Source: Baffinella frigidus
Taxonomy: Eukaryota; Cryptophyceae; Cryptomonadales; Baffinellaceae
Assembly (NCBI GenBank): GCA_026770585.1
Contig: MU646366.1
Location: 925,535-949,602 of the forward strand
Direction: 5' to 3'
Length of the DNA stretch: 24,068 nucleotides
Shown here: positions 5,967-23,000 of the stretch, piece by piece
How positions within the stretch are numbered: the first letter of the stretch is position 1
Layout of the letters: the number at the start of each line of letters is the position of its first letter
Made by a program: the position numbers and the translations under genes
Notes under the pieces: model-generated
Told to the model about the DNA's origin: nothing
The model's input: only the letters and a program-made list of their open reading frames with translations
Databases searched by the model: none

Positions 5967-6083
5967 ATGTCTGGCGACAACACGTCCAGGCGATGGCTGC
6001 GACTATCGGCGATCTTTGTTCCTGCGCTCCTTACGGCGACGGCCCTTGTCCTCGTCGTGCTCCACGCCTCCTCACCCGGCAAG
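5967..6083 (+). CDS. Gene A exon 1: N-terminal signal anchor
   Basis: The ATG at 5967 opens a 39-codon exon ending AAG|GTGCTT. A basic flank (SRRWLRL) precedes about 20 hydrophobic residues (IFVPALLTATALVLVVL), as in a signal peptide or type II signal anchor. No clear cleavage site follows, so an uncleaved anchor is my preference. The start was chosen because the exon ends in phase with exon 2 and the hydrophobic segment sits at the usual distance from the Met. Confidence 0.75.
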
Positions 6084-9000
6084 GTGCTTCCGTTCCACCC
6101 GCTAGCTGGCTGCTGTCCCGGGAGCGAAGGGGAAGAAACATCGGCTAACACACAGCATTTTCGGCAGCTGACTGCTGTTCTGGGCGCGAAGGGAGAGCAA
6201 AATCCGCTAACGCACGTCATAATTTTCAGGATGTGGCCTTGGCGGAGCTGGGTGTCGCAGCTGGAGCGGAGGGTGGACGGGGGGGAGCGGTGACCGAGCA
6301 GCTTTTCCAGCTTCAGAAGCTGGCTCTCTCGGATGAGATCCACATCAAGATGCCCCACTCCGCCCATAGGTGCAACCATATGCCCTCCCTTCCTGTGACT
6401 TCTACAAGTCTACTTGCTTCCAATATGACTAGGGAAAGCCGCTGAATGGGGCAGCGCAGTCCACACCAGAATCAGCGACTGGCGAGCCCTCGCCGCGGCT
6501 AGGGCCGTGTGACTCGCGAACCTCGTGCCCTATCAGCACCTGTGATGCAGTGTTCACACCACGTACTGCGAGTCTAAGAGACGTCGTCTGAGACGGGAGG
6601 TGCCGCGCAGGTGGAAAAAGGTGTGGGGCGACGAGGGCTGGACGGAGGTGCGGACCGCTGCGCGGGCAGCGAATCCAGCGGCGAGCAGGCGACGCGCTCA
6701 GCCACAGTCACGTGGCCGCGCTCACGCAAGGGGCGCCATGACCACAGCGCTCCACTCTCTCCAGCGCAACCATGTCTTCTACCGGCCGGGGGGTGGGGAC
6801 TCCCCCCCGATGGGGCACAACCCGGAGGGCGTGCCGGGGGGCACAGTGCGGTACGAGACGGATGACGTCTCGGGGGGGGGGCCTGGCGACATCTCCGTCA
6901 GGTGCGTCTCCCTGCCCCCCCTGCCGCCCTGCTTCTCCTCCTTGCAAGACGCGCTGATATATGCAACACCTCAACCGTGGGGGCGTGCACGTTTGCCAAT
7001 GGGATCTGACAGCTGAACGAGAGGGCACACGGGCGGCAGGTACTACGCACCGCGACCGATGGGGGCGCCCGAGCAGCAGGCGTACAGCGTATCTGAGCCG
7101 CGCTCGCCGCTCATGGCGGGGGAGCTGGCTGACCTCGGTACCGCGGGGTCAGCGTCCGCGGAGAGCGACCGCGGCCTTCTGGATCAGCATGACCACGACG
7201 TGCCCTATGTCGACGAGGAAGGCCACCCGAAGAAGTTCCGCGAACAGGGCTTGATCAACTCCGCGCATCAGGGCCATCGGTTGCTGTGCATCACGAATTG
7301 TGATATCGAGACGGGGGGGAGGGATACGCCGGTTGGGACGTTCACGGGTGACGTGGCGTCTGATCAGTGGCCCACGCTCCCTGCCGCGGTTGCTCCCCAC
7401 CCAGCCAGTGCTTCTCCTCTGGGGCTTGCCCTCTTCCGTGCGGATCGAGTGTGTGCGGTGTTGTGAGAAGGGGGGGTGGAGGAGAGTCCTTGCTTCTTGT
7501 GGGGGCAGGCAACGTGATGGGACGCATTGGTGGCATGCATGGATGAGTGATGCGGCGTGATGCGGAAATCGAGTGGGCGGGTGACTGTCGGCGCGAAGAG
7601 ATGTCTGGGTCTGGGCTTGCGAGCCTGGGCAACTGGCGGCTCACAACCTGATTACCTCTTGGACCCACGCCAGGTGAAGGCACTGGCCGCGGAAGATGAT
7701 GATGAGGATGAGGAGCCCAAATCCGCGGTACCGCCCCGCCTCCGTTCGCCCACCCCCCCGCGTGTTCTAGCGCTGACTCCGTCTGAATCGGCCTCACTGT
7801 CGGTTTTCGCTGTAAAGTTGACGAATTTGTACCGCACACCCAGAACATCAACTTGTGAAAAGTCGGCCAACCCGACTGAGACCAAGCTAGGTGGTGTATG
7901 CGCTGGCGGAGTGTTCAGGGGCGTGGGGCGAAGCTGACTTGGGGCGGGGAGCAGGTGGAGGAGGAGACAGGCAAGATCGGGGCGGCGCTCAAGGGGCTCC
8001 GGGACCGGCAGAAAGCTCAGGATCAGCTGCACGAGGATGATGGTCTCGATGCTATGGAGGAGGCCCACGGCAAGGTGCGCCTGCTCCGCTGCAAGGGTGT
8101 AGGGTGCAGGGTTAGGGTGGGGGTTCAGGGTTTGGGGCTACCCTCACCCCCGTCCCGAGCCCCTAACTAAGGCGCGCCTGCCTGCTTTCCTCGCTGCGGC
8201 GTGCGCTCCCTTAGGGTTTAGGTTTGAGGGGGTGGGGTGATACCAGTTCTGTGAGAAGGTTATTTAGGGTTGAGGGCCACGCCAGGTCAGAAATTGAAAT
8301 TTCGTTTTACTACACCATCTTCGAGTAAAGTTGATTCTCACCCGGGAAACACGCCGTATGGGGAGAATTGGAACTCTTTGCCGCAGGTAGAATGAAAATG
8401 TGTACCACAAAATCCTTTCAACGCCAAATGTTGTGTTTGAAATTCCCACTTCCGACCTGGTGTGGTTCAGGGTTTGTCAAGTTGGTTTAGGGTTTAGGGT
8501 GTATGGAGGGCCTAGCCCTGCATCCGTCTATTTGAGCTCACCAATTTGGTGAGCCCGGGCTGTTTTCCGCTCCAAATTTGTCGGATTGGTACCACAAACC
8601 CAGCATGTCAACTTGAGAATAGTCTGCCAACCCGAGTGAGGCAGAACTAGAGGACGTTGGTGGGTGGCTGTCAGGAGTGGTGGAGAGTCGTGGTGAGTTG
8701 AGTGATGGAGGGAAGTGGGTGAAGAGTGATGGAGAGTCATGGTGGGTGGAGTGGTGGAGGGTGGCCAATGGTGGGTGGTTGTCAGGCGGAGGAGGGTCAC
8801 CAATGTTGGGTGGCTCAGTTGCCTCAGAGTCAGTTACTCCAAGGTGACACCGTAACCGTATAGTACGCTGACATGGCGCTGACATGGTGACATGTATATG
8901 GCAGGCGGAGGAGGATCTTGAGGAGGCGCACAAGACCGTGGAAGACAACATCGACGAGGCCGAGATCTCCTCCTCTATCAAGGTGCCTACACCTTACACC

Positions 9001-10558
9001 CTTGACCCTAGACCGTGACCCCTAAACCTTAAACACACTAAACCCTAAACTCTTAAACCTACACCCTAAACCCTAAACCGTGCACCCTACACACTACAAC
9101 CCTACACTCTGCACCCCACACCCTGAACCCTAAGCCCCGAACCTTGAACCCCATACCCTCAACGCTAGGGGCTGGAGACGGAGTACAAGAACGCGGAGCT
9201 GGCGTTGGATTACGCCAAGAAGGGTGACTTCTCCTACATGGTAACATCCGCCACCGCACCTTTCCGTAGCCGCTTCGCTCGCCCTTCACCCATTGCTTTC
9301 CACCCATTTTTCGCCTCTGCACCTTTCCGCCGGAATGGATCTGTACCTCTCCGCCCGAAACGCCTCATCTTCAAGGATCGCAGATCCGCAAAGTCTCACC
9401 CAGCCTCAGTCGGGTTGGCTGATCGTAATCACGCCAATAGTTGATGGTTTTGGACCACACACCCGGCAAATCTCCTCCAGGTCTCCTCATTCTGACGAGG
9501 CCATTCTGAGGAGACCAGTCTAGCTCAGCCAGATCCAGAAAAGGACGATTGAAACCCTGCTGGTGGCCGCAGGCAAAGATCACAGGGGGGGGAGCATTGG
9601 AGGACTTCTACAGATCAGAGGACCCTCTTCTGCTCCATTCGATCCGGAGAGGCGACTTCGTGGAGAAGCCTGGGCCCCTTCCGAAGCCGTATGTCGACGG
9701 GCAGGTGCCGCCCCGCCCTGTCAGAATTGTGCTTGGTACAGAGTACCCCGGATGCAGTCGCTGTTCCACGCCCCGCAGTCCGAATCGACTTATCCCGAGG
9801 TTCAGAAAGTGTGGAGGCGTACCAGAGGTTATTTCCGCCACGCCCCCTGCGCGACTGCGGCCAGCCCGACCCCGTGTGTGCACGGTGCGGTGCCCTGCGA
9901 GCGACAATTCGGGTGAGCCCACACACGTGTGGCAGCGTGCCAAAAGGGCACTGCACCCTTGTTGGCACCAGTTTGGTGCGCGGCTGCCGTGCGAGGGGTG
10001 GTAGTATGCACGTTGTGGTAAAATGATCCCTAAAAAACAACCTACACCAGGGCAACGAGATTTCGCGGGAAAACAAGAAGGAGCTTTCGTGGAACATGAC
10101 CGATGAGCTTGTCGATCTTGATAAGCAGGCCTCGCGCCAGGTCGACACCTCTACGCCCTGCACCCTATAAACTAGACACCCCCCACCCCACACCCTACAC
10201 CCTGTGGTGCCTCGTGGTTGGGAACCCTGAACTTTGAACCCTCAACCCTGCCCCATAGGCCATGGACCATGGACCATGGACCATGATCCCTGCACCCTGA
10301 ACCCTGAACCCTACACCCCACACTCCACACCCTAAACCCTAAACTCTTAACCCTAAACCCTAAAACCTGAACCCTGAACCCTAAACCCTGAACCCTAAAC
10401 CCTTAACCTTGCAACCCACACCCTATACCCTACACCCTAAACCCTAAATCCCAAACCCTACATGGCAGATGAACACGCTGCCGCTCCTGCCCTCGCACAT
10501 GTTCGGGGATGACCAGCCCAAGGAGGAGGAGGACGGCAACAGGTACTTCACCTTCTCC

Positions 10559-10590
<32 letters not shown>

Positions 10591-13500
10591 TCCTCCCTCC
10601 CTCTCGCCCTTCCTCGCGTTCTCCCTCTCACCCCCATCGCGCCCACGACGCACCTTGATGCTGCCCCTCCCTGCGTTGTCTGATTCCTTGGCATCAGCAC
10701 ACTCGCCCCCCCCTCCCTGCGCGCCAGGGCTGACTGACTGAACCTCTCGCTATCTCACACACTCGGCACACACTCTCCGTGTGTCATGGCTGACCGAACC
10801 ACCCTCTCCACCGCTCGCAGCAAAAAAGCGCACGTGTATGTGCCGTTGAAGCACCTGGACCAGCTCTGCCTCCTCTGCGAAAGCCTCTCAGGTCTGCTCA
10901 CCCGAAAGCCTGTCAGTTCTGCATACCTTCTGCGAATCCCTCTCCGGTCGACTGATGCACTCCCGCCTTGGATCCAACTCATTGTACGCTTCCTCCTCGC
11001 GTCCCCTTGATGTGCCCCCCTCTGCCCGTGCTGCCTTCGCGCACCGTGAACCCGCAACCCGGAATCCTGATCCCTGAACCCTGAGCCCTGAACCCTGAGC
11101 CCTGAACCCTGAACCCTGACCCTGAACCCTGAACCCTGAACTCTGAACCCTGATTCCTGTGCCCTGATCCCTGCACCCTGCAGGGTCCGGCGCTCTTGAT
11201 TTAGAACTCAATCCTTTGATTCAGCCCTAATCTCTAACCCCTCACCCCTCACGTCCAAACCCTAATCCCTAACCCCCAACCCCTAACGCAGGGTCCGGCG
11301 CGCTGTCGTCGATCCCGGCATGCCAGGGCATGAGCTGCGAATCCGGAAGCTGGAAGGACTCGGACGTGGCGCATGTGTACGACGAGGACGACCTCAACCC
11401 CGTGCTGCACCCGGACCGGCCCCAGTACCAAGGGGGGGAGCGCTTCTCGGACAACACTCCTGTGTATCAGGTGTGCGCTCGCTGCCGTGCGTATGGGGGC
11501 ACGTCCCGTGTGGGAATAGCCGGAGTGGCGTGTCTCCAGAGTGCCGATGCCGCGTGCAGGGGCATCTTTCCTGGAGCCCCGGTCATCTTTCCTGGTGGCC
11601 GCCACTTCCCCTGCTGGTCACTGCTGTCAACACTTTCGGTGGAGGCGCAGCTGCGAGCTGCGAAGAGAGGGGCTGCGAGGCGATGCCGTGTGTGCGACCA
11701 ACGCCGGTGTTGACGGGTGGTGTGGTGGTGGTTGGTGGCCGGAGCAGAATGGGGGTTTTCGAGTCTCTGGCCTAGACCTCCCCCACATTTTTTTGGTCTA
11801 TCACTCCCTCACTCGCGTGTCTGTTTGATTGCTGCCAAACCCCTGAACCCTAAACCCAAGCAGGATGGGCCACCGGAGAAAAAGAAAGAGCGGGAAGAGG
11901 ACTTTCTGACAGAGGCTGAGAAGGCCATCTGGCCGAACACCAAGGCTGCGCCTGAATTCTCCAGGTCGCCTCTCAATCTCCCCCCCCCGCCCGCCTGACC
12001 CATCTGGGGGGCGCAACCTCTATGCAGCAACATGCTTAGGACTCATTGCATCCCATCACCTCTCTAAGGCGCACCCTCGAGTCGGGACGCGCTCCTCTCC
12101 CGGTAGGCGTATACCTTAGCCACACATGCAGCCTGAGGTGGATGACATGCACGTGCGTGGTGAGAAGGGCGGTGCTAGCAGCACGTGCATGTTTGATCGA
12201 GGCGGAGCGCGTGCATGCCTGATTGCCAGTGGGGGGCGAGGTCTGACGTGGGGACGCTGTCACACGCGCGACAGGCCACGGGCGCTGAAGGCCGTGGGGT
12301 CGAGGCAAGGCGGGGCAGGCGTGGTGCAGAGCCTGGCGAGCATCTCGCCTGTCGCCGCGGGGCTCTCGGAGGCGCAAGTGCGCCGCGAGGTGCCTCCCTC
12401 GCCCCCCCCCCTCCCCCGCTGCCTGCCCCGCACTGATGCGTCAGCCAACCCCAGTGAGACAGAGCGAGGTTTCCTTGCACCATCCCACCCGGCCTGCCTG
12501 TGCAACGCCTCCATGGCGTGCGGCCAGCCCTGCAGCAGAGCGCGCGCGCGTCGGCGCTCAAGTGCGGGCGGGTGTGTCAAACTGAGCAGGCCTGCGAGTT
12601 CTTGGCGGCCAGCACCGTCCCGGAGGTGGTGCGGATCAAGTTTGGCGCGCGATGGCTCAAGTCGCACTATGCGCAAAAGTTCGGCAAGCCGCTGCGATGC
12701 AAGGGGAGTGGATCAAGAGCGCACCCCACCTCGCGCCTCGCGGCTTCTGACTTCGCTACTCCCAAGGTGTCTCCCCCCCCCCCCCCCCCCCCCCAGCAGG
12801 TGGATGGATCGATCAAATTCCTAGCTCTGCCTTACTGAGTAATCGTTGGCAGGCCATGAAAGCATTTCAGGTGCCTTTGTGTACTGGAGTTTGCGCCATA
12901 AATGTGTTTGACGACGAGCCCAGGTTTACGCAGGCAGAGCTAGAGTCACATCTGCTGCGACACCGCGCGCTTCGCTTCCAACTCCCCACGCCCCTCCCAC
13001 CGATGTCACGTGCCCTAACACCGCGCACCACGCAGCGGGGGCAGTTGCTGGCAGCGGGCAAGGAGGGGGGGGCGGATGCGGATAAGGAGGTGGAAGCGGA
13101 GGCGGATAAGGAGGGGGCGGCGGAGGAGGGGGGGGACGATGCTGGGGCACCACCGGCGACCGTGCAGTCTCCCGACATCCCCAAGAAGCTCCAGGTCTGG
13201 GGGTTTAGGGTTCAGGGTGCAGGGTGTGTGAGGCGTCATGGGTTGGATGCACATGCAGTATTGGCCCTCCTTCTCCCCGGTAGCGCATGGGGGCCCATGA
13301 GGGGTGCAAGGCGGGCGGGGGCTGTGCTTGCTTGCGCGGGTGGGAAAAGGGGGGTGGGGCGCGCGTGTTGTCGGCAACGAGGAGGCGTGTGGCGCAGGGA
13401 GAGCTATTAATTCTGCTAGAACGTTACTGTGTAAAGTCAATCCTGCTGGTCCTCCACGGGGCTTGTCTATGCACCTCAGCGGGGGTTAATGAAGTATTAT

Positions 13501-16244
13501 CGCATGACGAGGATGTTGTTGCGTGCAGCGCGTGGATTGGCGCAGAGGGGCGGGGCGCGTAGGTGCGTGTGCAACGCTGAGGTGGCGTGCGGTGCAGGGA
13601 GAGGATGGAGAGGAGCTTGGCGCTGACGCGGAGGATCCTGAGGAGAAGGAGGATGAAGAGGAGAAAGAGGAACAGGAGGGGGAGGACGGTGCTGAGGACA
13701 AGGAGGTGTGTGCCCTGCCCCCTCCTCTCCCCCCTCCCCGTTCTGCCCCTTCCTATCCCATCGCTGCCCGCCGCAGCCTGCGCTTCTCTCTTCTTCTTCT
13801 GTATTATCCTCAAATTTTTTTTGCAAGGGGGCATCTACTACCTAATACAGCGTGCGTCGAAGTGCCCTGCCCTGCCCTCTTTGTTCTTCCCCTCGACGCT
13901 TCTGCAGGCATCCTGATGTGTCCGTCGAGGTGTCAGAGTGCAGAGTGCGGGCTTCCGACGCAGGTGCAGTGCGACAGAGAGTTTTTCGGGAGGTGTCCGG
14001 TGTCTCTTGCGTTCATCAACGGAGCTGGTGGGCTTTGTATGGCGTGTCTTCTCATGCGCGGATTGACTAACAGGAGGAGGAGGAGGAGAAAGAGGAGGAG
14101 GAGGCAGACGCAGGGAGCGTGTACCTCTACGTGGGCAAAGACGCCAAGGCTGGCTTCCAGTACAAGATGGAGGTATTTTCCCAACCTAAACCAGCCGATG
14201 AATTTGTCAGAGAGGAATCGCCGTGTTGCCACACCCGTGCCACTCCTATCCCTCTACGGATCCTGGGCTTTCCACCGTCCTCCGTGCCGGCTTGCTGGGT
14301 CGCACTTTGGAATCCTCTCGACGGCTCCGCCTGGCGTGGCCATCCTGACCGGTGGTTCCTCTCTCGGCAGGACATCTTGGCGAACCAGCAGCTGGGTGGG
14401 GGGCCTGTCGAGGTCCTTCCCTCCAGAACCCTGATTGTCCCGTGCCAGGATGATGTCAGGGTCTTTATGGGGCAGGCGGGGGGCAGGGGGGAGGCACCAT
14501 GATCGTCCCTTGGCAGTCGCGGCCGCGCGGCGCGTGTGGTTCAGGATTCAGGGTTTAGAGTTCAGGGCTAAGGGTTCAGGGCGCAATACTGTTTCATTGG
14601 TACCAGGGAACGCATTCAACGGGGGTAAGCCTCAACCTCAATTTCTGATATGTGACCTGGCGTGGCAGGTGAAGACATTCCAGTCGCTCTCGAAAGAGGC
14701 GATCCGCGCTGTCGTCTGGGGCCCCGACTGCTCCGTCATCATGTTCCCCCCCTTCTTCTCCTTCCCGGACTTCCCGCCTTCGGCAGAGGCGGACCTCAAG
14801 GGATACGTCCGCGCGGGGGGGGAGCTCAAGGTCCTGCCCCCCCCCACTCGTTCCATCCGTCATCGGTCCCCGCGTCTTGCCCTCTGCGCCCCCCCGCCCC
14901 CACCTTTCTGAAACTCTGCCTGAAAATGGCTCAAGCCGCGTCCTCGATTTGGCCCGCTTGGGAGGGATTGTGGGCCTCGCGGGCACGTGCGCGGAGCGCT
15001 GCCGCCCCGTGATGGTCTCCGTGTACCGATCTCATCGCGGCACTTAATTGAAGACTTTCACAGGGCGTTCATCCAAAGGGTTACCGGTACAGATCCCGGT
15101 ATTTTGGAGCCCTGCAAGTACGAAACAGCTCCAACGCCACGCCAAATCTGACATACACTCTATTAGGTGACTGGACTAGATCTGACTTGCAGACGGTCTG
15201 GTCCACTGCGCAGGGCAACGTGATGTTTGTGGGTGGGGGGCTGGAGGTGGAGGTGATCAACAAGATGTTCGGGTGGAGTATTAAAAGCAAGTACGCCGGG
15301 GGGCCCTACTACAAGAACGAGCGGAACGCACGTGAAGACAACAGCTTCGGTAAGTCGCCTCTCTCCTCGTTCCGCCCGAACCCTCCTTTGTCTGCACCTC
15401 GCCCTCTGGAGCCAACCTCCCCTCCCGAGACCTCATTGGGAGCGAGCGCGCTGCGAACAAGGAGCGTGCTGGCGGATGGGGCGGGTCCTGAGAAACATCA
15501 AGGCATGGGAGGGAAAGAAAAAACTCGGTTTGAGCGTTCACCTGACGGAGAGTGCAATGTATCGGAGGGCTGACAGAGGGTGCACTGTGGGCAGGGATGC
15601 TGCCGAACATGGTGCCGGAGGTGGGCAACGTGTACGGCATGTGGCTCGAAAGCCTCCCGCCTAACTCCCACTCCTTCTACGACTCTTTCGGGGTGCCTAA
15701 TCCCTACATCCTACACCCTGCACCCTACACCCTACGCCTCACACCCTACACCCTACACCCTACAGGGGTACCCCGCTCATAAGAAACTGCCTCTTCCTAG
15801 GACCCTACGGTAGGACCATGCCTAGGGCCCTATGGTGGTCCTAGGTGGGGGGGCAGTTTCTTTTGAGCGAGGCACCCCTGTACATCCTACACCCTACACC
15901 GTACACCGTACACCGTACACCGTACACCGTACATCGTAAATCCTACCCCCTACCCCCTACCCCCTAAACCCTACACCCTTAACCCCAAACCCCACACCTC
16001 ACACCACGCACCCCACACCCCATACCCGAAACCCGAAACCCGAAACCCGAAACCCGAGACCCCACACCCCACACCCCAAACCCCATACCCTAAACCCCAA
16101 ACCCCAAACCAGGTGTCTGTAGCGTGCTGCATTCGACAAGACATGGGGAAGGTGTGCTTTCTCGCGCAAGATTTCCTCGATGTTTTGCAGGATGAGGTCC
16201 AGCCGTGGTCGGAGCTTGTTGCTGCCATGATTAATTTCCAATAA
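5967..16244 (+). CDS. Gene A: signal-anchored protein with GATase-like C-terminal domain
   Basis: Proposed exons: 5967-6083, 6230-6369, 6611-6647, 6765-6901, 7040-7352, 7674-7727, 7955-8074, 8905-8982, 9169-9240, 9539-9704, 9742-9912, 10051-10140, 10469-10542, 10821-10891, 11292-11470, 11864-11964, 12132-12159, 12536-12766, 12853-13194, 13598-13705, 14074-14172, 14371-14460, 14607-14624, 14669-14830, 15193-15349, 15577-15692, 16113-16244. Most junctions are GT-AG and join in phase. The weak ones are the end of exon 5, the exon 10/11 region, exon 17 and the 18-nt exon. The product is about 1,130 residues: an N-terminal hydrophobic anchor, an acidic and coiled-coil middle, and a C-terminal alpha/beta domain. 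Function is unknown; a secretory-pathway or surface location is inferred from the anchor. AATAAA overlaps the stop (16240-16245). Confidence 0.75.
6230..7352 (+). CDS. Gene A exons 2-5: Gly/Pro-rich luminal region
   Basis: Exons 6230-6369, 6611-6647, 6765-6901 and 7040 to about 7352. The phases interlock: exon 2 leaves AG and exon 3 supplies G; exon 3 ends in phase 0; exon 4 leaves AG and exon 5 supplies G. The product includes RWKKVWGDEGWTE, HVFYRPGGGDSPPMGHNPEG, a second proline-rich part, then DVPYVDEEGHPKKFREQG and GHRLLCITNCDIETGG. No known domain recognised. The exon 5 donor (GAC|GTGGCG) is weak and was picked because only it gives phase 0 into exon 6. Confidence 0.6.
7618..7637. repeat. 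Short dispersed repeat shared with 18658-18700
   Basis: GCGAGCCTGGGCAACTGG in gene A intron 5 resembles GCGAGCCTGGGCAAT...GGCAACTGG at about 18658-18690 in a gene B intron. It may be a fragment of an older dispersed element. Confidence 0.4.
7674..9240 (+). CDS. Gene A exons 6-9: acidic, predicted coiled-coil segment
   Basis: Exons 7674-7727, 7955-8074, 8905-8982 and 9169-9240, all in phase 0. They encode an acidic patch (AAEDDDEDEEPKSA), then Glu/Lys/Ala/Leu-rich helices (for example GAALKGLRDRQKAQDQL, AEEDLEEAHKTVEDNIDEAE and LETEYKNAELALDYAKKGDF) with heptad-like hydrophobic spacing. A rod-like or oligomerising linker between the anchor and the C-terminal domain is my inference. The intron before exon 9 is telomere-like throughout. 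Confidence 0.65.
8277..8465. mobile_element. MITE-like inverted-repeat element (189 bp) in gene A intron 7
   Basis: The 27-bp terminal arms at 8277-8303 and 8439-8465 match at 22 of 27 positions after inversion (CCACGCCAGGTCAGAAATTG against CCACACCAGGTCGGAAGTGG). The interior is lower in GC than the surroundings and has no open frame of note. Telomere-like motifs flank it. It belongs to a different family from the CAGGGG elements, and I cannot identify a target duplication. Confidence 0.6.
8536..8554. repeat. 19-bp palindrome in intron 7
   Basis: GCTCACCAA and TTGGTGAGC flank a single T. It lies at the left of one copy of the dispersed CCAACCCGACTGAG repeat. Confidence 0.7.
8654..8815. repeat. 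GGTGGAGAGTC minisatellite-like tract
   Basis: Irregular repeats of GGTGGGTGG, GTGGTGGAGAGTC and GTGATGGAG(G/A) fill this part of intron 7. The long minus-strand Ser/Thr/His-rich open frame here is a shadow of it. Confidence 0.6.
8983..9168. repeat. Telomere-like repeat filling gene A intron 8
   Basis: From the donor GTGCCT to the acceptor CGCTAG, almost the entire 186-nt intron is degenerate CCCTAAAC, CCCTACAC and CCCTGAAC units, with three near-perfect CCCTAAA copies around 9065-9078. The acceptor AG falls in the last degraded unit. Confidence 0.85.
9539..9912 (+). CDS. Gene A exons 10-11, with reading-frame problem
   Basis: The exon enters in phase 0 after a CAG at 9536-9538 (KRTIETLLVAAGKDH). 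After a run of eight G (9585-9592) the most protein-like frame is shifted by one base (ALEDFYRSEDPLLLHS, then GDFVEKPGPLPKPYVDGQ to about 9704). The good donor CGG|GTGAGC at 9912 is in phase only with a third frame (VPRPAVRIDLSRGSESVEAY, then CGQPDPVCARCGALRATIR). A 37-nt GT-AG gap (9705-9741) would reconcile the last switch. The G-run change may be a real mutation, an assembly homopolymer error, or a mis-modelled exon. Confidence 0.5.
10051..11964 (+). CDS. Gene A exons 12-16: charged middle region
   Basis: Exons 10051-10140, 10469-10542, 10821-10891, 11292-11470 and 11864-11964. Phase joins are exact: exon 13 leaves AG and exon 14 supplies C (Ser); exon 14 leaves G and exon 15 supplies GG (Gly). 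Products include GNEISRENKKELSWNMTDEL, MFGDDQPKEEEDGN, HVYVPLKHLDQLCLLCESLS, DVAHVYDEDDLNPVLHPDRP and the Lys/Glu-rich PPEKKKEREEDFLTEAEKA. No domain recognised. Introns 12, 14 and 15 are rich in telomere-like repeats; intron 13 has a CT microsatellite. Confidence 0.6.
10145..10462. repeat. Telomere-like repeat in gene A intron 12
   Basis: About 310 bp of CCCTAAA, CCCTGAA and CCCTACA units. A short CCATGGA tandem array (about 10258-10282) interrupts it. Frames reading FRV/GFRVQG-like peptides on the minus strand arise from it and are not genes. Confidence 0.85.
10554..10630. repeat. CT-rich microsatellite in intron 13
   Basis: CTCTCT repeats followed by CCCTCC-rich sequence lie just after the donor of exon 13. 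This is simple sequence. Confidence 0.85.
11041..11288. repeat. Telomere-like repeats in gene A intron 14
   Basis: Two blocks (about 11047-11190, mostly CCCTGAA; about 11222-11288, mostly CCCTAA/CCCCTAAC) are separated by about 40 bp. The second runs directly into the CGCAG acceptor of exon 15. GGGTCCGGCG follows a CAG in both places (about 11183 and 11291), so the region duplicated a pseudo-acceptor. Confidence 0.8.
12132..13194 (+). CDS. Gene A exons 17-19
   Basis: Exon 17 (12132-12159, good donor GTGAGA) is tentative; only its length satisfies the phase from exon 16 into exon 18. Exon 18 (12536-12766) encodes a Cys-containing, basic segment (CGRVCQTEQACEFLAAS, EVVRIKFGARWLKSHYAQKF) and ends AAG|GTGTCT before a C22 run. 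Exon 19 (12853-13194) enters after GGCAG and runs through FDDEPRFTQAELESHLLRHR into an acidic Ala/Lys/Glu tract (ADKEVEAEADKEGAAEEGG). It could be two exons with an in-frame intron. Confidence 0.5.
12773..12794. repeat. C22 run in gene A intron 18
   Basis: Twenty-two C immediately before AGCAG, six bases after the donor of exon 18. It could serve as a pyrimidine tract, and it is also a place where assembly length errors are likely. Confidence 0.85.
13198..13230. repeat. Short telomere-like tract in intron 19
   Basis: GGGTTTAGGGTTCAGGGTGCAGGG begins four bases after the donor of exon 19, in G-rich orientation relative to the gene. Confidence 0.75.
13598..14172 (+). CDS. Gene A exons 20-21: poly-acidic linker
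   Basis: Exons 13598-13705 and 14074-14172, both in phase 0 at each end. They are almost pure Glu/Asp/Lys (GEDGEELGADAEDPEEKEDE, then EEEEEKEEEEADAG), before the more folded-looking SVYLYVGKDAKAGFQYKME at the end of exon 21. This marks the boundary between the disordered middle and the C-terminal domain. Confidence 0.65.
14371..16244 (+). CDS. Gene A C-terminal GATase-like domain (exons 22-27)
   Basis: Exons 14371-14460, 14607-14624 (tentative), 14669-14830, 15193-15349, 15577-15692 and 16113-16244. Strand RTLIVP is followed by LSKEAIRAVVWGPDCSVIMF, then helix plus Gly turn ADLKGYVRAGGELK, strand GNVMFVGGG, helix EVINKMFGWS, then GNVYGMWLESLPPNSHSFYD, and finally GKVCFLAQDFLD followed by WSELVAAM before TAA at 16242. 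The order (helix-GG-strand-GG, a (F/I)N..FG(F/W)S motif, an SLP.NS..Y motif, a G.V.FL..D strand and a closing W..LV..A helix) matches, from memory, an unnamed family of predicted secreted microbial proteins with a ThuA-like flavodoxin fold. I see no catalytic Cys-His pair, so a non-enzymatic role is possible. Confidence 0.6.
14537..14583. repeat. Telomere-like tract in gene A, after exon 22
   Basis: G-rich degenerate units (TTCAGGATTCAGGGTTTAG and similar) precede the tentative 18-nt exon. They have the opposite orientation to the C-rich tracts of introns 8, 12 and 14. Confidence 0.75.
15693..16112. repeat. Telomere-like repeat filling the last intron of gene A
   Basis: The 420-nt intron starts GTGCCTAATCCCTACATCC and ends CCCCAAACCAG. 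Apart from an inserted 118-bp element, it is made of CCCTACA, (ACACCGT)n at about 15898-15935, CCCCTAC, (GAAACCC)n at about 16026-16056, and CCCCAAA units. Homogenised variant arrays lie side by side. The acceptor CAG is part of a repeat unit. Confidence 0.85.
15763..15880. mobile_element. MITE-like element 3 (118 bp) inside telomere-like intron
   Basis: The ends begin CAGGGGTACCCCGCTCA and, inverted, CAGGGGTGCCTCGCTCA, continuing AAGAAACTGCC in both. TA lies outside each end. The interior is also self-complementary (CCTAGGACC...GGTCCTAGG), so the whole element can fold into one hairpin. It sits in the middle of a telomere-like array that continues on both sides, which shows insertion into an existing array. 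Confidence 0.85.
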
Positions 16245-17580
16245 ATACCGCCGTTACAGACGCTGCCCCGCGCATGGGAGCCGCAGGGCTGCAGCCTGTA
16301 CACAGCTGTCAGAACAGCTGCGTTCAGTACAGGGGCCTCGCTCACAAGGAGGCAACCCCCTAGGACCCTACAGTACGCTGATAACCACAGTAGCCCCCTT
16401 GGGTGCTCCTAGGTGTTGGGGCGGCTGCTTATGAGCGAGTTACCCCTGTAGCTGAAACGCTGCCCCTCTGTGGGAAGTGACACCAGACGGTCCACTTCTC
16501 TTCTCTTGCCCTTCGCCGTGGCCCATCGACCCTGAGCTCTTCGCCGTGACCCATCGACTCTTCCTCCGTTCAGAGCAGTGACACTCTTGGTAACACCTAT
16601 TTACATGGGTGACACGGCGTTTTTCTTGTAACACGATATTCAAAATATGTTTATGTATTCTGTTTTGAGAGGTGAGCCAACACGCTACGACACGTGCAAC
16701 GAGGAACATGGGACATGGAACATTCGAGTGTGTTCTCCATACGCCACCACTTCCTGCGAGCGCACGAAGCCCCTGATTTCCCGCATATCCTTGCTGATAG
16801 TACAGCATGCCCGCTGCGCTGCTTTCACTCAGCACTGCGACAGCTCTCTCAGCACACACCCCACCATTACACTACAGCCACCCAGCCGAACGTTTCCCCC
16901 GCGTTGTTACTTTCCATGTACAGTAAATCCCCCTCTGCCCCCCCCCAAAAAAATCTCAAAGCTGCGTGCCTGAGGGCAGCGAGGAAGGTGGTCGCGAGAC
17001 GATGAGATGGGCGGGGAGCGATGGGGCTAGAGAGCCGTCGCGCGATCCTTCGAGGCCTGCCAGCGTTCATGTCCCTTCATTGCCGAGTAGGCTCATACGT
17101 CCTGACGTAGGGCATGTGTAGGAGTCTAGGACCCCTGCGGGGTCAATTTTGACCCCATCGCCACTGAGGGGAATTTCAATACACTCGTGGTCTCTCTCGA
17201 CAATTGCAGTAGGCACTGATACTGAAGATGCTCGAGGTGATGAAACATTAACAGACACGCACGTTCCGGTGACGGCTGCCACGCCCGAGTACTCCAGATG
17301 CAGGGACCCTTCGTGCCCTACCCCGAGTGCAATCAACCTAACGGCCCGAGGCGGGCTCGTCCTGGCATATGTCCTCACCGTGCACGCCGGTGGCGCCCCC
17401 CCAAGAAAATCTAAGTGGTTCCCGAAAATAATGGAGTGTTTTCCGCGCGGAGCGGGGAAAACTTTCCGGGGGGGTAAGTGTTGGTGTGTTTGTGGCGCGG
17501 CGTGGTGGCGCAACCAGAGATCTCTCTCTCAAACTCAGAACAGCTTGGTGCCGTATTGAACGGCGGCGGAAAGAGGTTTC
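16245..17580. other. Convergent intergenic region between genes A and B
   Basis: Both genes end here (gene A stop at 16242-16244, gene B stop at 17581-17583). It contains element 4, a GGGGTCAA/TTGACCCC palindrome (17139-17156), and two overlapping unassigned frames (17149-17559 plus, 17067-17513 minus). The plus frame ends near a strong donor-like GGGG|GTAAGT at about 17474, but no partner exon is visible. I cannot support a gene here. Confidence 0.5.
16330..16448. mobile_element. MITE-like element 4 (119 bp) 3' of gene A
   Basis: The ends CAGGGGCCTCGCTCA and, inverted, CAGGGGTAACTCGCTCA are flanked by TA. It has the same length class and core (CCTAGGACCCTAC...CTCCTAGG) as element 3, so it is a second diverged copy. 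It starts 85 bp after the stop codon of gene A and could lie in its 3' untranslated region. Confidence 0.8.
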
Positions 17581-18830
17581 TCACAGTTTCTCAAGACCAA
17601 GGGTAATGGTACCTCTTATGTAGAGGGCCCTGGTCTCAAGGGTCAGTAGAGAGGGGGGACCTGCGAGGGAGTCGAGAGCCATGGATAGTCCAGCCTCGAA
17701 GGAGCGCGTCCAGAGGGGGACGTCGAAGAGAGGCGAGGATTCCCGCGCATCCAGCAGCGCCTTGCGCACCGCCTTTCGCTTTTTCTCGCTCCGAACCTGG
17801 ATGTAGGGTTTCGATTTTGAGGGGTGCGTCCACTGACCAGACTCAGCAACAGTAGCCTGCTCCACCCGCATGCTCACACAGAGAACCTGTGCCTCGCAGC
17901 GATGCAGCGAGATGGCAGCCAGCCTGGGAAACGCACAGGTCGAGGCGAAGTGCCCCATGGCTGCTGCCCCTCTCGCACGCGCACCCCCACCAGAGGCGGG
18001 AGAGAGACCAGCGCGAGCGTGAGAGCGACGTAGTCCTCGACATTGCGCGCCACCACCACCCCCGGGTGCGCCCCCCCGCCCCCTCCACCACCTCCTCCTC
18101 CAGCGCTGCCGCGCGGCGGGGCGAGCGGCGGGGGGGGGGCAGGGGGGGCGAAGGCGAGGGAGGCTGAGACGCGGGATGCGAGAGTCTCGCGCGGGAGGAC
18201 CACCAGAGGTACCCCTGCCAGCAGCGCGTCCCCTGCCCGTCGAGGGAAAGTGTGAGATGTGCCTCACAACCTGACCACGCGCACCCCGCCGCGATTGCCA
18301 TCACCTCCCAGGGAGGGGATCCTGGTTGGAAAGTCCCGGTTGGGAATCACGCGGGGAGGACGTCGGGGCACAGGACAGGCATGTTCAGGAAGCGGCAGGG
18401 CACGCTTCCCCTGTGTGGGTGCGCGAGGGGGTGTGTGGGTGCTATAATGTGTATGGAAGCCCTCGGGAGGCACGCGTAGGGGCAGTGTGGGTCTAAGGTT
18501 ACGCGCCAGTGTAATACGGTTCTAAAGGCGACTTGCGGTACCGGCCGTTACGTGGGTGTTTCCACGAACCAAATAATCATGTACCGGACATGATGTTCTC
18601 GCCATCAGTTGGGATGCCCTCGGGTGGCGCGAGTACCGGCAGTGTGGTCCTAAGGTTGCGAGCCTGGGCAATCAGGCTCGGCAACTGGTGGTCAACCTGA
18701 GGTGGGCGTGGGGCATGGCAAGAGATGTCAAGCTGGGTGGCGTCTCTCTCTCTCTCTCTCTCTCTCTGGCTCTGTCTGTCGGTCTCTGTCTCTCTCTCTT
18801 TCTCTCTCTCTGTGTCTCTGTGTCTCTGTG

Positions 18831-18875
<45 letters not shown>

Positions 18876-20052
18876 GTCGGGTACCGGCGGTGACGTGGGC
18901 GTTGTAGCCTGGGGTGTCGAGAAAGAGGTCTGCCAGGCTCTTGAAGGCGAGGTGCTCTCCGGATGGGAAAGGGTCTGAGAAGATGATCCGGTCGGGTGAG
19001 ACCCCCTGCCGGAAGGCACCCCTCGCCCGTCAGACAGACAGCCATGGGGTGCAGTGCGTGAGTCAATCAGCCAGTTAATCAGTGAGTGAGTAAGTGAGTG
19101 AGTAAGTGAGTGAGTAAGTGAGTGAGTGGGCCATTCAGTCTTTCAGTCAGTCAGTCAATCACAAGAGAATCAGTCACGCGCGGCAGACCACGCAAACGAT
19201 GCGCACGACATACCTGCGCGAGCGAGAAACCCGCCTCACGACGCACAGAGACATCCCCGCTGACGCATACGGCGGGTCAACCCTAAACACTACACCTCAA
19301 ACCCAACCCAGCAGGTAAGGGTGGGGACGGGTCGGTACCGCGGCCGAGGCACTGGCGAGAAGACGCTGTTCCGCAGCAGGGGAGAGCGCCAGCCGCGATA
19401 GCCTGGCGTGTGCCACGGGGTTGGCGCCAGGGTGAAAGTGCGAGCTCGTGCCAAATGGTTCCACCGCCCCTGGGCATATCTGACTGGGGGAGGGCGCCAA
19501 CCGCGGTTGCCTGTGAGAGAACACCAGGTACAAAGTCACTCCTGGTTGGTTAATCCCTGGCTACACGTGGGCACGAAGTGGAACTCGCCTAGCGCTCTCA
19601 GCCTGGTGGGCGCCCGGGGGGTGGATGCAGGCTGGACGTTCGAGCTCGTACCAAGCGGTTTCAACGCCCAGGTCGAATCTGACTGGGTGCACGGGTTGAC
19701 GGTCTGAGTGGGGGAGCATGGCATGGAAGGGCGGCGCAGAGCCATGGAGGGGAATGGAGAGAACACGTGTGGAGAAGATATGCGCGCTCCGCCACGGTGA
19801 TAATCGTTGGGTGTGGGGTAAGGGGCGGGACCAGAGGACGGAGGCGTCGTCAGGTTCCAGGTTCCGGGTTCCAGGCTCAGGGTTCAAGGTTCAGGGCTCA
19901 GGATCCAGAGTGCATGGGCCAGGGTTCAAGGGCCAGGGTTCATTGGGAGGACCAGAGGACGGATAAGGCGTTGGATTGGAGGATGGCCAGCCACGAGGCC
20001 CAGGTGGGGGCGTCGAGCTTCTTGGCTCTGTTGAAGCTCGCTAGCACCACCC
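17581..20052 (-). CDS. Gene B catalytic C-lobe and C-terminus
   Basis: Exons 20052-19953 (VVLASFNRAKKLDAPTW, ending in SVLW split across the junction), 19510-19339, 19005-18885 (GVSPDRIIFSD, LADLFLDTPGYNAHVTAG), 18232-17991 (DALLAGVPLVVLPRETLASR, VVVARNVEDYVALTLAL) and 17796-17581 (KAVRKALLDARESSPLFD, FEAGLSMALDSL, stop). The nucleotide-binding Lys of the SFN..KK segment and the His, Thr and Asp of HVTAGD are present. Exon 18232-17991 carries a Pro/Gly-rich insertion of about 29 residues where the family normally has a short helix. The last exon extends about 24 residues past the usual end, so the true 3' end could differ. Confidence 0.9.
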
Positions 20053-23000
20053 CTGCTGTGAGTTTAGGTTTTAGGGCTTATGGCTTTGGTAAACCAGCCA
20101 CGCGTATCACCCCCCCGGTCACGTGACTGCTGCTGTGGGAGGAGGAGGCGGTGAGCTCGGAGGGGGTTGGGGGGAGGAGGTGGTGGTGAGCCAGCCACGC
20201 CGAACAGCGCCGGTCACGTGACTGCTGCCGGGCCGAAAGGGGGATAGCGCTGGTTATGCGGGTAACGGCGTTGCGCGAAGGGGTGGAAGGTGAGCGTGCG
20301 GAGACAGTTTCGAAGAGGCTCGTGCGAGCATGGCGGTCAACGGTGTGTTTAGGCGGGCCGTGGGCGATGCGGCGAGATAGCGAAAGCGAGCGCGAACGAG
20401 AGAAACAGAGGGGGGGGGGGAGGGGATGAGAGCGGGAGAGACAGAGGGGGAAAGGGGAGAGAATGGGAACGGGCGCGACCTCCGCCCTCCGCGCCCTGCT
20501 CCGGCGGCAGCCCCAGCGCCTCCCGCGAAATCCCCGCCACCCCCCCGGGGGGCGTAACGCGGGCGGGCGGGTCGAAGGCGCCGAAGAGATGGAGCTGCGG
20601 GAGGGGATGGTGGGAGGGGGGCAGGAGGAGGAGGCGCTCGGAGAAGAAGCGTGCCATTTCTGGCGGCGCGCTCACCCTACTCGTGCGAGGGCGTTATTCA
20701 GTCAGCAGGTTACCCGCCAGTGTTTCTTACCCTGCTCGTACCAGGGGGGGAGGGGGGGGTATGATGTTGGTGCCAACATGCTAACCCATGTGCGCGTCAC
20801 CTACCAAGTTGCCCACACGTGATGCGCACCCTCCCCGTGTCAACCATTCGCGCGCGAAATTGGAGGAGCGGCAGCGCTTGCTGGGGTTTCGGCTGAGTGG
20901 CGTTGAGGTAAGGCTGGGGGCGAGGACCTGTCTGCCAGGAGGGCATGAATGAAGGAGCACCCGCTCGCACCCGGGAAGCCGACAGCGTTGATGACAAGAG
21001 GCGCGGGGCGGAGGGCGAGAACGTCGTTGCGGTCTTCGCCCGACCACCCGTTGAGGTTCACCATCACATGCACCCCGAGAGCGTTCACCTGCCAAGCCCC
21101 CCGCACCCGTCACATGTGTGACGTCCCGTACGCAGACACATCACGCGTGTCTCGTCCCGGACGCACACCCGTCACCTTCCTGCCATAGCGTCGTGGGGAT
21201 GCACACCCGCCACCTTCGTGCCATGGCGTCCTACTCACTGTGCAAGAACCGCGCCCCCCCACTACACTACGCACCCGACACTGGTCCTGATGAAAGTGGA
21301 GACATTTCGAAAGCGCGGGTGTCGGGCGGACAGGTAGGGGGGGGACGTGCCTTTGCAGCGGCGGCACGCGCCGAGAGGCCCGCGATGGAGTGCACTTGTC
21401 CCCCTCCGCACAGCGCCTGCCGCCAGGACCGCCCCGATTCACGCCCACGAACCCCCCCCCTGACTCACAACCCCCAGCCACCCTCTCGACTGACAACCCT
21501 GAATCCCCCCCCCCCCAGGTTTCCAGCCTTGCGGGGGTGCGGAGAGGCGCGTGGGGAGGCGGGGAGACGAAGCGGGCGCTTGCGTCCAGGGTCCTAGGCG
21601 GATGCGCGGGGGCAGGTTTGTCGGGGACGGGCAGGGGGTGGAGGGATGCGCGATCTCTCGTTCCTGAGGCACGGATGCGAGGGGCACGCCGTGCTGAGAA
21701 ATGCGCAACCCCAACCCCCAAAATCCTAACCCCAAACCCCATACCCTGAACCTTGCACCCTGAACCCTCCTGAACCATGAATCATAAACCCCCAGGAATG
21801 CACAGCGGGGCCATACATCGGTGCATGAGGGGCAGGTAGAGGCAGGAGACGGGGACCACCTGGACCTCCTGCTGATACGGGAGGGGCGATCGACTGATGC
21901 CGATCGAATGCGAGTCGATGCATACGGGCGTGAATCGCTGCCGAGAAACACGCCACGCGCCCGTCAGTGTCAGTGTCAGTGTCAGTGTCAGTGTCAGTGG
22001 TGCGGGGCATTGACGCCTGCGCTCTGTGGCCTCTCCCCTGCGAATTCTCGCCTGCACGAAGTTCTCTGTGGTAAGGGTGGGCGACCTCATTCCGTCGTGA
22101 ATCTAATTCCGGCATTCCGTAGGGTGCTACGGTACACAATACGGAGGCGTGATACGGAATGCCGAAATTGGGTTCACGCCGGAATTAGGTCGTCAGCCGT
22201 TAGGGAAAGATGAGGATTTGAGACCTGGCGGCGATGCCCGGCGAGGATTGGCACGAGCAGCTGTCCGATAGGATGTGATAGCTTCAGGTCTGACGTCAGG
22301 TACCCCACCACCACCATCCTCCCCCCTCCCCCCGCGCCCGACAGCCCGTCGATCCAGCCCCCCCCCGCCCACCAGCGACCCGGGGGGGGCATAGGGGAAG
22401 GGGAGGCGGGGGAGTGTGCGAGGGCGCGGGCAGCGGCAAGGTTCAGCGGTCGCGCTGCCTCCTCTGCCCACCTGCAATCACCTCCCGGGAATCGCAGCGG
22501 GTTAGGTGAATGGTTGCTGCAAGGGCACGAGGTGCAACCAGGCTCAGCAGGGTCTCTCACCGGGTTGATCAAGTGATCACCGTGTCAGCGGGCGGACCGG
22601 GGAGTTGGTGTTTGGGGTTTAGGGTGTAAGGGTTTAGGGTTTAGGGTTTAGGGTTTAGGGTGTAGGGTTTGGGGTTTAGGGTTTGGGGTTTAGGGTTAGG
22701 GGTTTAGGGTTAGGGGTTTAGGGTTAAGAGTTCAGGATTGAGGTTTAGGGTTTGGGATTTAGGGTGTAGGGTTCAGGGTGTTGGGTGCATGGTTTGGGGT
22801 CTAGGGTTTTAAGGTTGAAGGTTTGACCGGCGCAGAAGGTCGCCATCAAGTCCGAGGTAGAGTGCCTCGTACGGACTGAGCCCTCCAGGAGCGTCGGCAC
22901 CTTCCGTCTCATTCTTTCCCCCAGTTGCGTCTGAACCTTCTTTCTCCTCCGTGCCCCCCGCTTCCACCTGGAAAGTGATTGCATTGTTGAGCACTTGAGG

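Follow-up and report, generated by a model that had tools for sequence, protein, structure and literature searches.

On balance we favour the view that a telomere-like repeat has been amplified in the nuclear genome of Baffinella frigidus, has overgrown its introns and has taken over many of their splice boundaries in register. What carries this view comes from computation: tracts of the repeat lie in introns, with one strand prevailing in the sense direction; they make contact with acceptors and share a register with splice sites; neighbouring units within them resemble each other; and introns contain copies of pieces of their exons.

The window, that is, the whole stretch of 24,068 nucleotides that was analysed, is nuclear DNA of this Arctic cryptophyte alga. 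It begins at base 925,535 of a contig of 1,012,366 bp, which places its tandem telomere-type repeats away from chromosome ends; the telomere repeat of cryptophytes is TTTAGGG. The 10 kb upstream of the window reads N, and homopolymers of 22 G and 22 C stand at 1-22 and 12773-12794 respectively.

Two genes and their introns

Gene A (5967..16244, plus strand; 24 exons and 23 GT-AG introns) and gene B (16959..23996, minus strand; 12 GT-AG introns in the annotated model) are real: the annotated B. frigidus proteins P0001 and P0003 map exactly to A and B, respectively, aligning with no mismatches through GT-AG introns. Gene B is GT41/O-GlcNAc-transferase-like (precomputed match to PF13844). Gene A gave no Pfam match in a search with four pieces, and by eye its N terminus is signal-anchor-like; Rfam returned nothing at gathering score for the window. 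Intron edges were taken from the whole of P0003 and from P0001 minus its last two residues, the final exon of gene A being read from the window. P0001, labelled partial, runs 6 nt into intron 23 (15693-15698) and then stops. The true last exon, 16113-16244, was found through P0002, a protein of 1,304 aa from a 3,989-nt contig that is probably a transcript: it resumes from residue 1262 at 16113-16241, and thus confirms the junction of intron 23. P0002 also covers the exons flanking gene A intron 12 (10834-10893 and 11288-11413); for introns 7 and 10 the edges are those given by P0001. For gene B, P0004 aligns to the exons either side of introns 5, 7, 8 and 9, and its likeness across intron 3 is seen by eye only.

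Stretches of N are frequent in the DNA we sampled and the P0001 model strays into an intron, as would suit an artefact of assembly or annotation; but the matches of relatives' proteins to both sides of tract-bearing introns (12 and 23 of gene A with P0002; 5, 7, 8 and 9 of gene B with P0004), and patterns of orientation and register that misassembly would not be expected to give, make such an artefact highly improbable.

The annotated model of gene B probably misses an exon, to judge from weak matches of P0004, P0005 and P0006 (E 0.002-0.006) at 23110-23220 (minus), inside its intron 2. The gene has at least 12 introns. Two 18-nt exon candidates in gene A, one at 12853-12870 and another, by eye, near 14608, are absent from P0001.

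Telomere-like tracts in the window

We defined as tract all 28-mers that agree with (CCCTAAA)4 or (TTTAGGG)4, whatever the register, at 19 or more of 28 positions, and call it C-sense or G-sense according to which strand reads in the direction of the gene. The window contains 1,767 bp of tract, compared with a mean of 3 bp and a maximum of 32 bp in 20 dinucleotide shuffles. Introns hold 1,736 bp of it (14.0% of their 12,441 bp), exons 31 bp, at their edges, and the 6,680 bp between genes none; the share falling in introns is equalled by 2 of 24,067 circular shifts of the window.

In gene A, three introns consist mostly of tract. Intron 7 (8983..9168, plus) is C-sense tract in 186 of its 186 nt and ends in the acceptor CTAG, which bears out an earlier note that had described this interval as telomere-like almost from donor to acceptor, under the number 8. 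Intron 10 (10141..10468, plus) is C-sense tract in 302 of 328 nt. Intron 23 (15693..16112, plus), the last and likewise named in the earlier note as telomere-like, has C-sense tract in 319 of 420 nt, and its acceptor CCAG lies in the register of the repeat. The tract of intron 23 is split by a terminal-inverted-repeat element at 15761..15882 (122 bp, 31-nt arms, no strand assigned), which makes up most of the non-tract part of the intron.

Shorter tracts are present in other introns of gene A (plus strand): 206 of the 400 nt of intron 12 (10892..11291), both of whose flanking exons are matched by P0002, are C-sense tract that extends to the acceptor; intron 13 has a C-sense tract at its acceptor (11828..11863); and G-sense tracts are found in intron 6 (8075-8904; three short ones within 8090..8513), at the donor of intron 17 (13195..13233) and inside intron 20 (14529..14587, the acceptor being 81 nt away). 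The near-complete intron 10 was missing from the list of the earlier note. Gene B (minus strand) carries C-sense tracts in intron 3 (22472-22827), beginning at the donor (22597..22825), at the acceptor of intron 7 (20052..20093) and in intron 8 (19859..19911), flanked there by two 15-nt copies of the donor junction; introns 5 (21704..21796) and 9 (19273..19311) have G-sense tracts.

These introns bear on a reading in which old introns with ordinary splice sites have merely had repeats expand inside them, so that the boundaries owe the repeat nothing. It is favoured by the 22 introns, of the 35 in genes A and B, without a tract of at least 28 bp, and by introns 10, 12 and 13 of gene A, which end in GCAG, the commonest acceptor of the two genes. 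The acceptors that the earlier note named, CTAG of intron 7 and CCAG of intron 23, are present. Against mere filling are the introns made of tract along their whole length.

Beyond the tracts, a second terminal-inverted-repeat element, related by eye to that at 15761-15882 and with the same arms (TACAGGGG...), lies at 16328-16450; the two look like non-autonomous DNA transposons. Other inverted-repeat elements occupy 2023-2395 (29-nt arms, 93% complementary) and 22072-22202 (50-nt arms, 82%).

Abundance in the genome and in sampled loci

Names beginning T484DRAFT we take to denote strain CCMP2293. In the 382 Mb searched there are 132,388 occurrences of (CCCTAAA)3 when one mismatch is allowed (67,569 forward and 64,819 reverse), and 184 of its reversed-letter control (88 + 96). 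The commonest unit of the tracts is CCCTAAA, at 160 of 1,410 units.

We also took a small sample of 20 stretches of 10 kb at fixed genome positions, two of them being the flanks of the window; 11 were all N, and 59,632 bases were readable. Tract accounts for 13,827 of these bases (23%), ranging from 0% to 50% per locus. For prediction we built a basic gene finder with genes A and B as its training set; of their introns it finds again, at penalties of -12 and -14 per intron, 20 or 21 of 23 in gene A and 10 of 12 in gene B. It was then retrained on its own first round. Run on 11 loci it gave seven predictions with 74 introns, making, with the 35 of genes A and B, a set of 109.

The proteins predicted match Pfam in two of the seven cases and lack a match in the other five. 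L013 matches HUWE1 (E 9.6e-6) and L030 matches SMG1 (E 1.8e-49; Pfam 2.3e-30), each giving evidence of the coding strand; L029 adjoins L013 on the same contig and strand, and the two were counted together. Tract is present in 21 of the 23 predicted introns of one stretch of the HUWE1-like gene. As further evidence of strand, L023 has a cyclic-nucleotide-binding (cNMP) exon on the plus strand (6.6e-7) next to C tracts, L033 a 3-beta-HSD-like piece (1.6e-4) just below the curated cut-off, and L015 a weak SRP54 match (0.0057) with tracts of mixed orientation. For L020, L010 and L012 the coding strand comes from the gene finder alone, and the L020 protein found no match among PDB sequences. No gene was detected in the 10 kb of L021, where tracts of the two orientations add up to 2,006 bp. 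At 8593-9985 (minus) of L023, a kinase gene of two predicted exons is free of tract and neighbours a tract-rich gene on the opposite strand.

In the sample, tract makes up 36% of predicted introns (8,547 of 23,649 bp), 2% of predicted exons (135 of 6,470) and 17% of DNA outside detected genes (5,130 of 29,513). Tracts are thus not confined to introns but are common outside detected genes too, a point in favour of the reading in which repeats only expanded inside old introns; undetected genes may be hidden in such DNA. The earlier note had held that an equal density in introns and between genes would count against its proposal: at 36% as against 17% in the sample, with tracts abundant outside detected genes, such equality is excluded only in part.

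Orientation of the tracts

Over all 109 introns, 74 of them predicted, CCCTAAA reads in the sense strand over 12,833 bp and the G-strand over 787 bp; 69 introns have a C-sense tract and eight a G-sense tract. That both orientations occur, as the earlier note remarked, is true and yet misleading, given this preponderance. The bias is present in the 85 introns of genes A, B, L013, L029 and L030, which we refer to as strand-checked (8,797 bp C-sense, 364 bp G-sense), and in the remaining 24 predicted introns (4,036 and 423 bp). Gene A has 1,049 bp C-sense and 232 bp G-sense, gene B 323 and 132 bp, and the predicted introns of L013, L029 and L030 no G-sense tract at all.

The coding strand was set independently for A, B and the HUWE1, SMG1 and cNMP-binding genes. 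As a control on strand, we replaced the interiors of tracts by random bases, keeping edges of 14 and 20 nt, and ran the gene finder with splice matrices from A and B only and the retrained codon table unchanged: the best strand was the same in seven of seven loci in all five replicates. In L023 the top-ranking gene under this control is the tract-free kinase gene on the minus strand, the plus-strand gene coming second.

Selection on splicing might account for the bias, since CCCTAAA adds almost no AG ahead of the acceptor and TTTAGGG adds one per unit. A first test for exclusion of AG, which measured how far upstream the preceding AG lies, gave a null result (p = 0.38); the number of AGs at -60 to -8, a measure chosen post hoc, averages 0.47 for the 36 tract introns and 2.11 for the remaining 73.

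Contact and register with splice sites

A C tract comes within 6 nt of the acceptor in 36 of the 51 strand-checked tract introns; 23.3 are expected, and none of 2,000 placements gave as high a number. At the donor the corresponding figure is 27 of 51 against 23.2 expected, a weak effect (27 of 2,000 placements). The other 18 tract introns show acceptor contact in ten cases and donor contact in four, with 1.3 expected for each. An acceptor lies within 6 nt of 46 of 99 C-sense tracts and of none of 13 G-sense tracts.

The boundaries also prefer a register. The 28 nt adjoining the donor match the repeat in 31 of the 109 introns (18 of the 31 come from the one gene of L013 and L029), and in 15 of these, where 1/7 is expected, the G of GT is the third C of CCCTAAA. 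GTs in tracts that are not splice sites show the donor register in 46 of 98 cases, equal to splice donors; donors therefore look like GTs that formed within arrays rather than sites placed independently of them. For acceptors the register consists of AAA, one base, then CAG, and is found at 23 of 48 repeat-matching acceptors (24 of the 48 being from L013 and L029), again with 1/7 expected; among AGs in tracts that are not splice sites it is found at 10 of 117, and among such CAGs at 8 of 34. Non-tract acceptors lack the A-rich stretch at -7 to -5.

Across the genome there are 1,917 instances of (CCCTAAA)2 with CAGG following at no more than 8 nt, and three of the reversed-letter control. Among the matches listed (100 of the 1,917, from contigs C1 to C13), 57 of 93 sites kept have the acceptor register; about 21 (2/9) would be predicted if the nine spacer lengths were equally frequent. 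The G-strand counterpart has 8,077 matches, most of which, among the 100 listed, read TTCAGG; it is unusable as a control, TTCAGGG being a frequent unit of the repeat in its own right. An annotation-free test of tract edges finds the acceptor motif at 21 of the 83 edges that read C, 15 of them in L013, and at 3 of the 83 that read G; the same test on two smaller sets gave 7 vs 2 of 42 and 3 vs 0 of 14, neither significant. A donor-like motif shows no difference between C-reading (23 of 83) and G-reading (21 of 83) edges.

Boundaries independent of the repeat would show the acceptor register in about 1/7 of the repeat-matching acceptors and 2/9 of the genome-wide sites listed, well short of the proportions just given; the lack of the A-rich stretch at non-tract acceptors likewise counts against such boundaries. 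Expansion of repeats inside old introns with no part in their boundaries is, on this evidence and despite the GCAG acceptors, the tract-free introns and the tracts outside genes, a possible but rather unlikely account. The proposal of the earlier note that intron sequence and certain splice sites came from the repeats draws support, in part, from the intronic tracts of the window, the acceptor contact and the preferred register.

Splice sites could have arisen by mutation of repeat units. In a stronger form of this idea, telomeric repeat would be an intron-making substance in this lineage: C-sense insertions into transcribed genes could be spliced immediately, or once one or two bases had changed (CTAAA to GTAAA, AAACCCT to AAACCAG), and a large share of introns would have been born or rebuilt in this way. 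We regard this form as rather unlikely. Every tract intron of gene A could be an old one that has become overgrown.

Local expansion and copies of exon pieces

Neighbouring units within a tract are likelier to be alike than when shuffled: 50 of 51 tracts lie above the shuffle mean, 42 of them at the 5% level or better, so that expansion of the arrays in place is probable. Exact copies of at least 12 nt of adjacent exon or junction sequence occur within the intron concerned in 28 of 109 introns, and in none of 541 pairings with other introns. With exon-only windows, copies in the strand-checked genes showed no specificity for the edge (4 of 170 at the edge vs 3 of 136 at 40-60 nt inside); in the set defined by the gene finder only they numbered 12 of 46 at the edge and 4 of 44 inside.

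Two examples lie in the window. The 14-nt junction of gene A intron 12 with exon 13, GCAGGGTCCGGCGC, is present at 11288-11301 and in an inner copy at 11180..11193 (plus), the 94 nt between being 73% tract; the 15-nt donor junction of gene B intron 8, TCCGTCCTCTGGTCC, has copies at 19949-19963 and 19828-19842 (minus) with 106 nt between, 50% tract. A junction duplication would leave a complete splice site on the exon side, and the insert would therefore fall within the intron. Insertion with duplication of the junction would fit both cases.

Such copies matter to the proposal that telomeric DNA was inserted into exons, probably at double-strand breaks, and spliced from the outset, each full-tract intron being new. 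Introns that are tract from donor to acceptor with ends in register, and the exon-piece copies within introns, accord with it, as do the telomeric insertions at breaks described in mammals, with in-register microhomology and occasional duplication (PMC2246262). By contrast, the inner copies of the two junctions just described suggest insertion at the edge of an existing intron, and introns do not resemble copies of each other in the best 25 of 2,426 alignments; we consider birth of these introns from exonic insertions improbable. Those best 25 intron-intron alignments are 72.5-82.5% identical, over repeat tract, and give no support to copying from intron to intron, nor do they show the many near-identical copies of one element that characterise Introners.

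Predicted introns of L012 and L020 contain copies of neighbouring exon sequence of up to 33 nt, which suggests either frequent local duplication in genes of B. frigidus or gene-finder errors at duplicated exons.

Discussion

The course of events that we favour, amplification of the repeat and its overgrowth of introns, would run as follows. Telomere-like repeat DNA would have been hugely amplified within the nuclear genome of B. frigidus; tracts would enter introns by insertion, at times duplicating nearby exon or junction sequence, and, once there, would grow and decay as variant units were duplicated in tandem. Introns would tolerate them mainly with CCCTAAA in the RNA, and in many the tract would have overtaken the boundary, leaving donor and acceptor inside the repeat and in register.

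Parts of this have parallels elsewhere. TTTAGGG is given as a telomere repeat in green algae (PMC8226300), and telomeric tracts in an artificial yeast intron are described as expanding at a high rate (PMC6410037). Short interstitial telomeric sequences of mammals are likewise telomere-type repeats internal to chromosomes, more decayed when older and often inserted at breaks in register, occasionally with duplication (PMC2246262 and PMC6410037); unlike them, the Baffinella tracts make up about one fifth of sampled DNA, lie mostly in one orientation in introns and meet splice sites in register. Introners, too, are repetitive DNA that supplies intron sequence across many genes of one genome (PMC9860276), whereas the Baffinella arrays are without a conserved element or constant ends, different introns being alike only as repeats. 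Intron gain by double-strand-break repair or tandem duplication also leaves duplicated sequence beside intron sequence (PMC8226300); in Baffinella the added DNA is telomere-like and gain is a candidate. Intronic minisatellites and microsatellites as a class share expansion in tandem and in place, but here a single telomere-type heptamer is involved, with a strong sense-strand bias and boundaries in splice-site register.

A literature search, with most subscription journals outside its range, brought up no recognised report of telomere-like introns in cryptophytes. A peptide search with the reading of intron 23 gave 77 matches, among which the only taxon-named ones are two Baffinella proteins, P0045 and P0092; it says little about how widely such introns are spread, because two (P0089, P0100) of six matches inspected look bacterial. 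P0089 and P0100 contain in-frame translations of a similar 7-nt repeat (TPYTVHR...), and heptamer insertions may thus be present in some bacteria also. In P0041, an ankyrin-type protein encoded on an environmental contig of 2,155 nt, a telomere-like reading breaks into the sequence; a further organism may be affected in like manner.

The origin of intron sequence and of splice sites is a long-standing question. In this one genome the introns of one gene after another seem to be filled by a single simple repeat that has a direction, follows a strand rule and keeps a register. The tracts may also lie behind faulty gene models, among them the truncated P0001 of gene A. They point to an unusual route for the growth of introns, perhaps for their origin, and, in a strain whose genome is reported at 534.5 Mb with 41.1% repeats, 6.1 times that of Guillardia theta (PMC9756366), would tie telomere biology to the large size of the B. 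frigidus genome.
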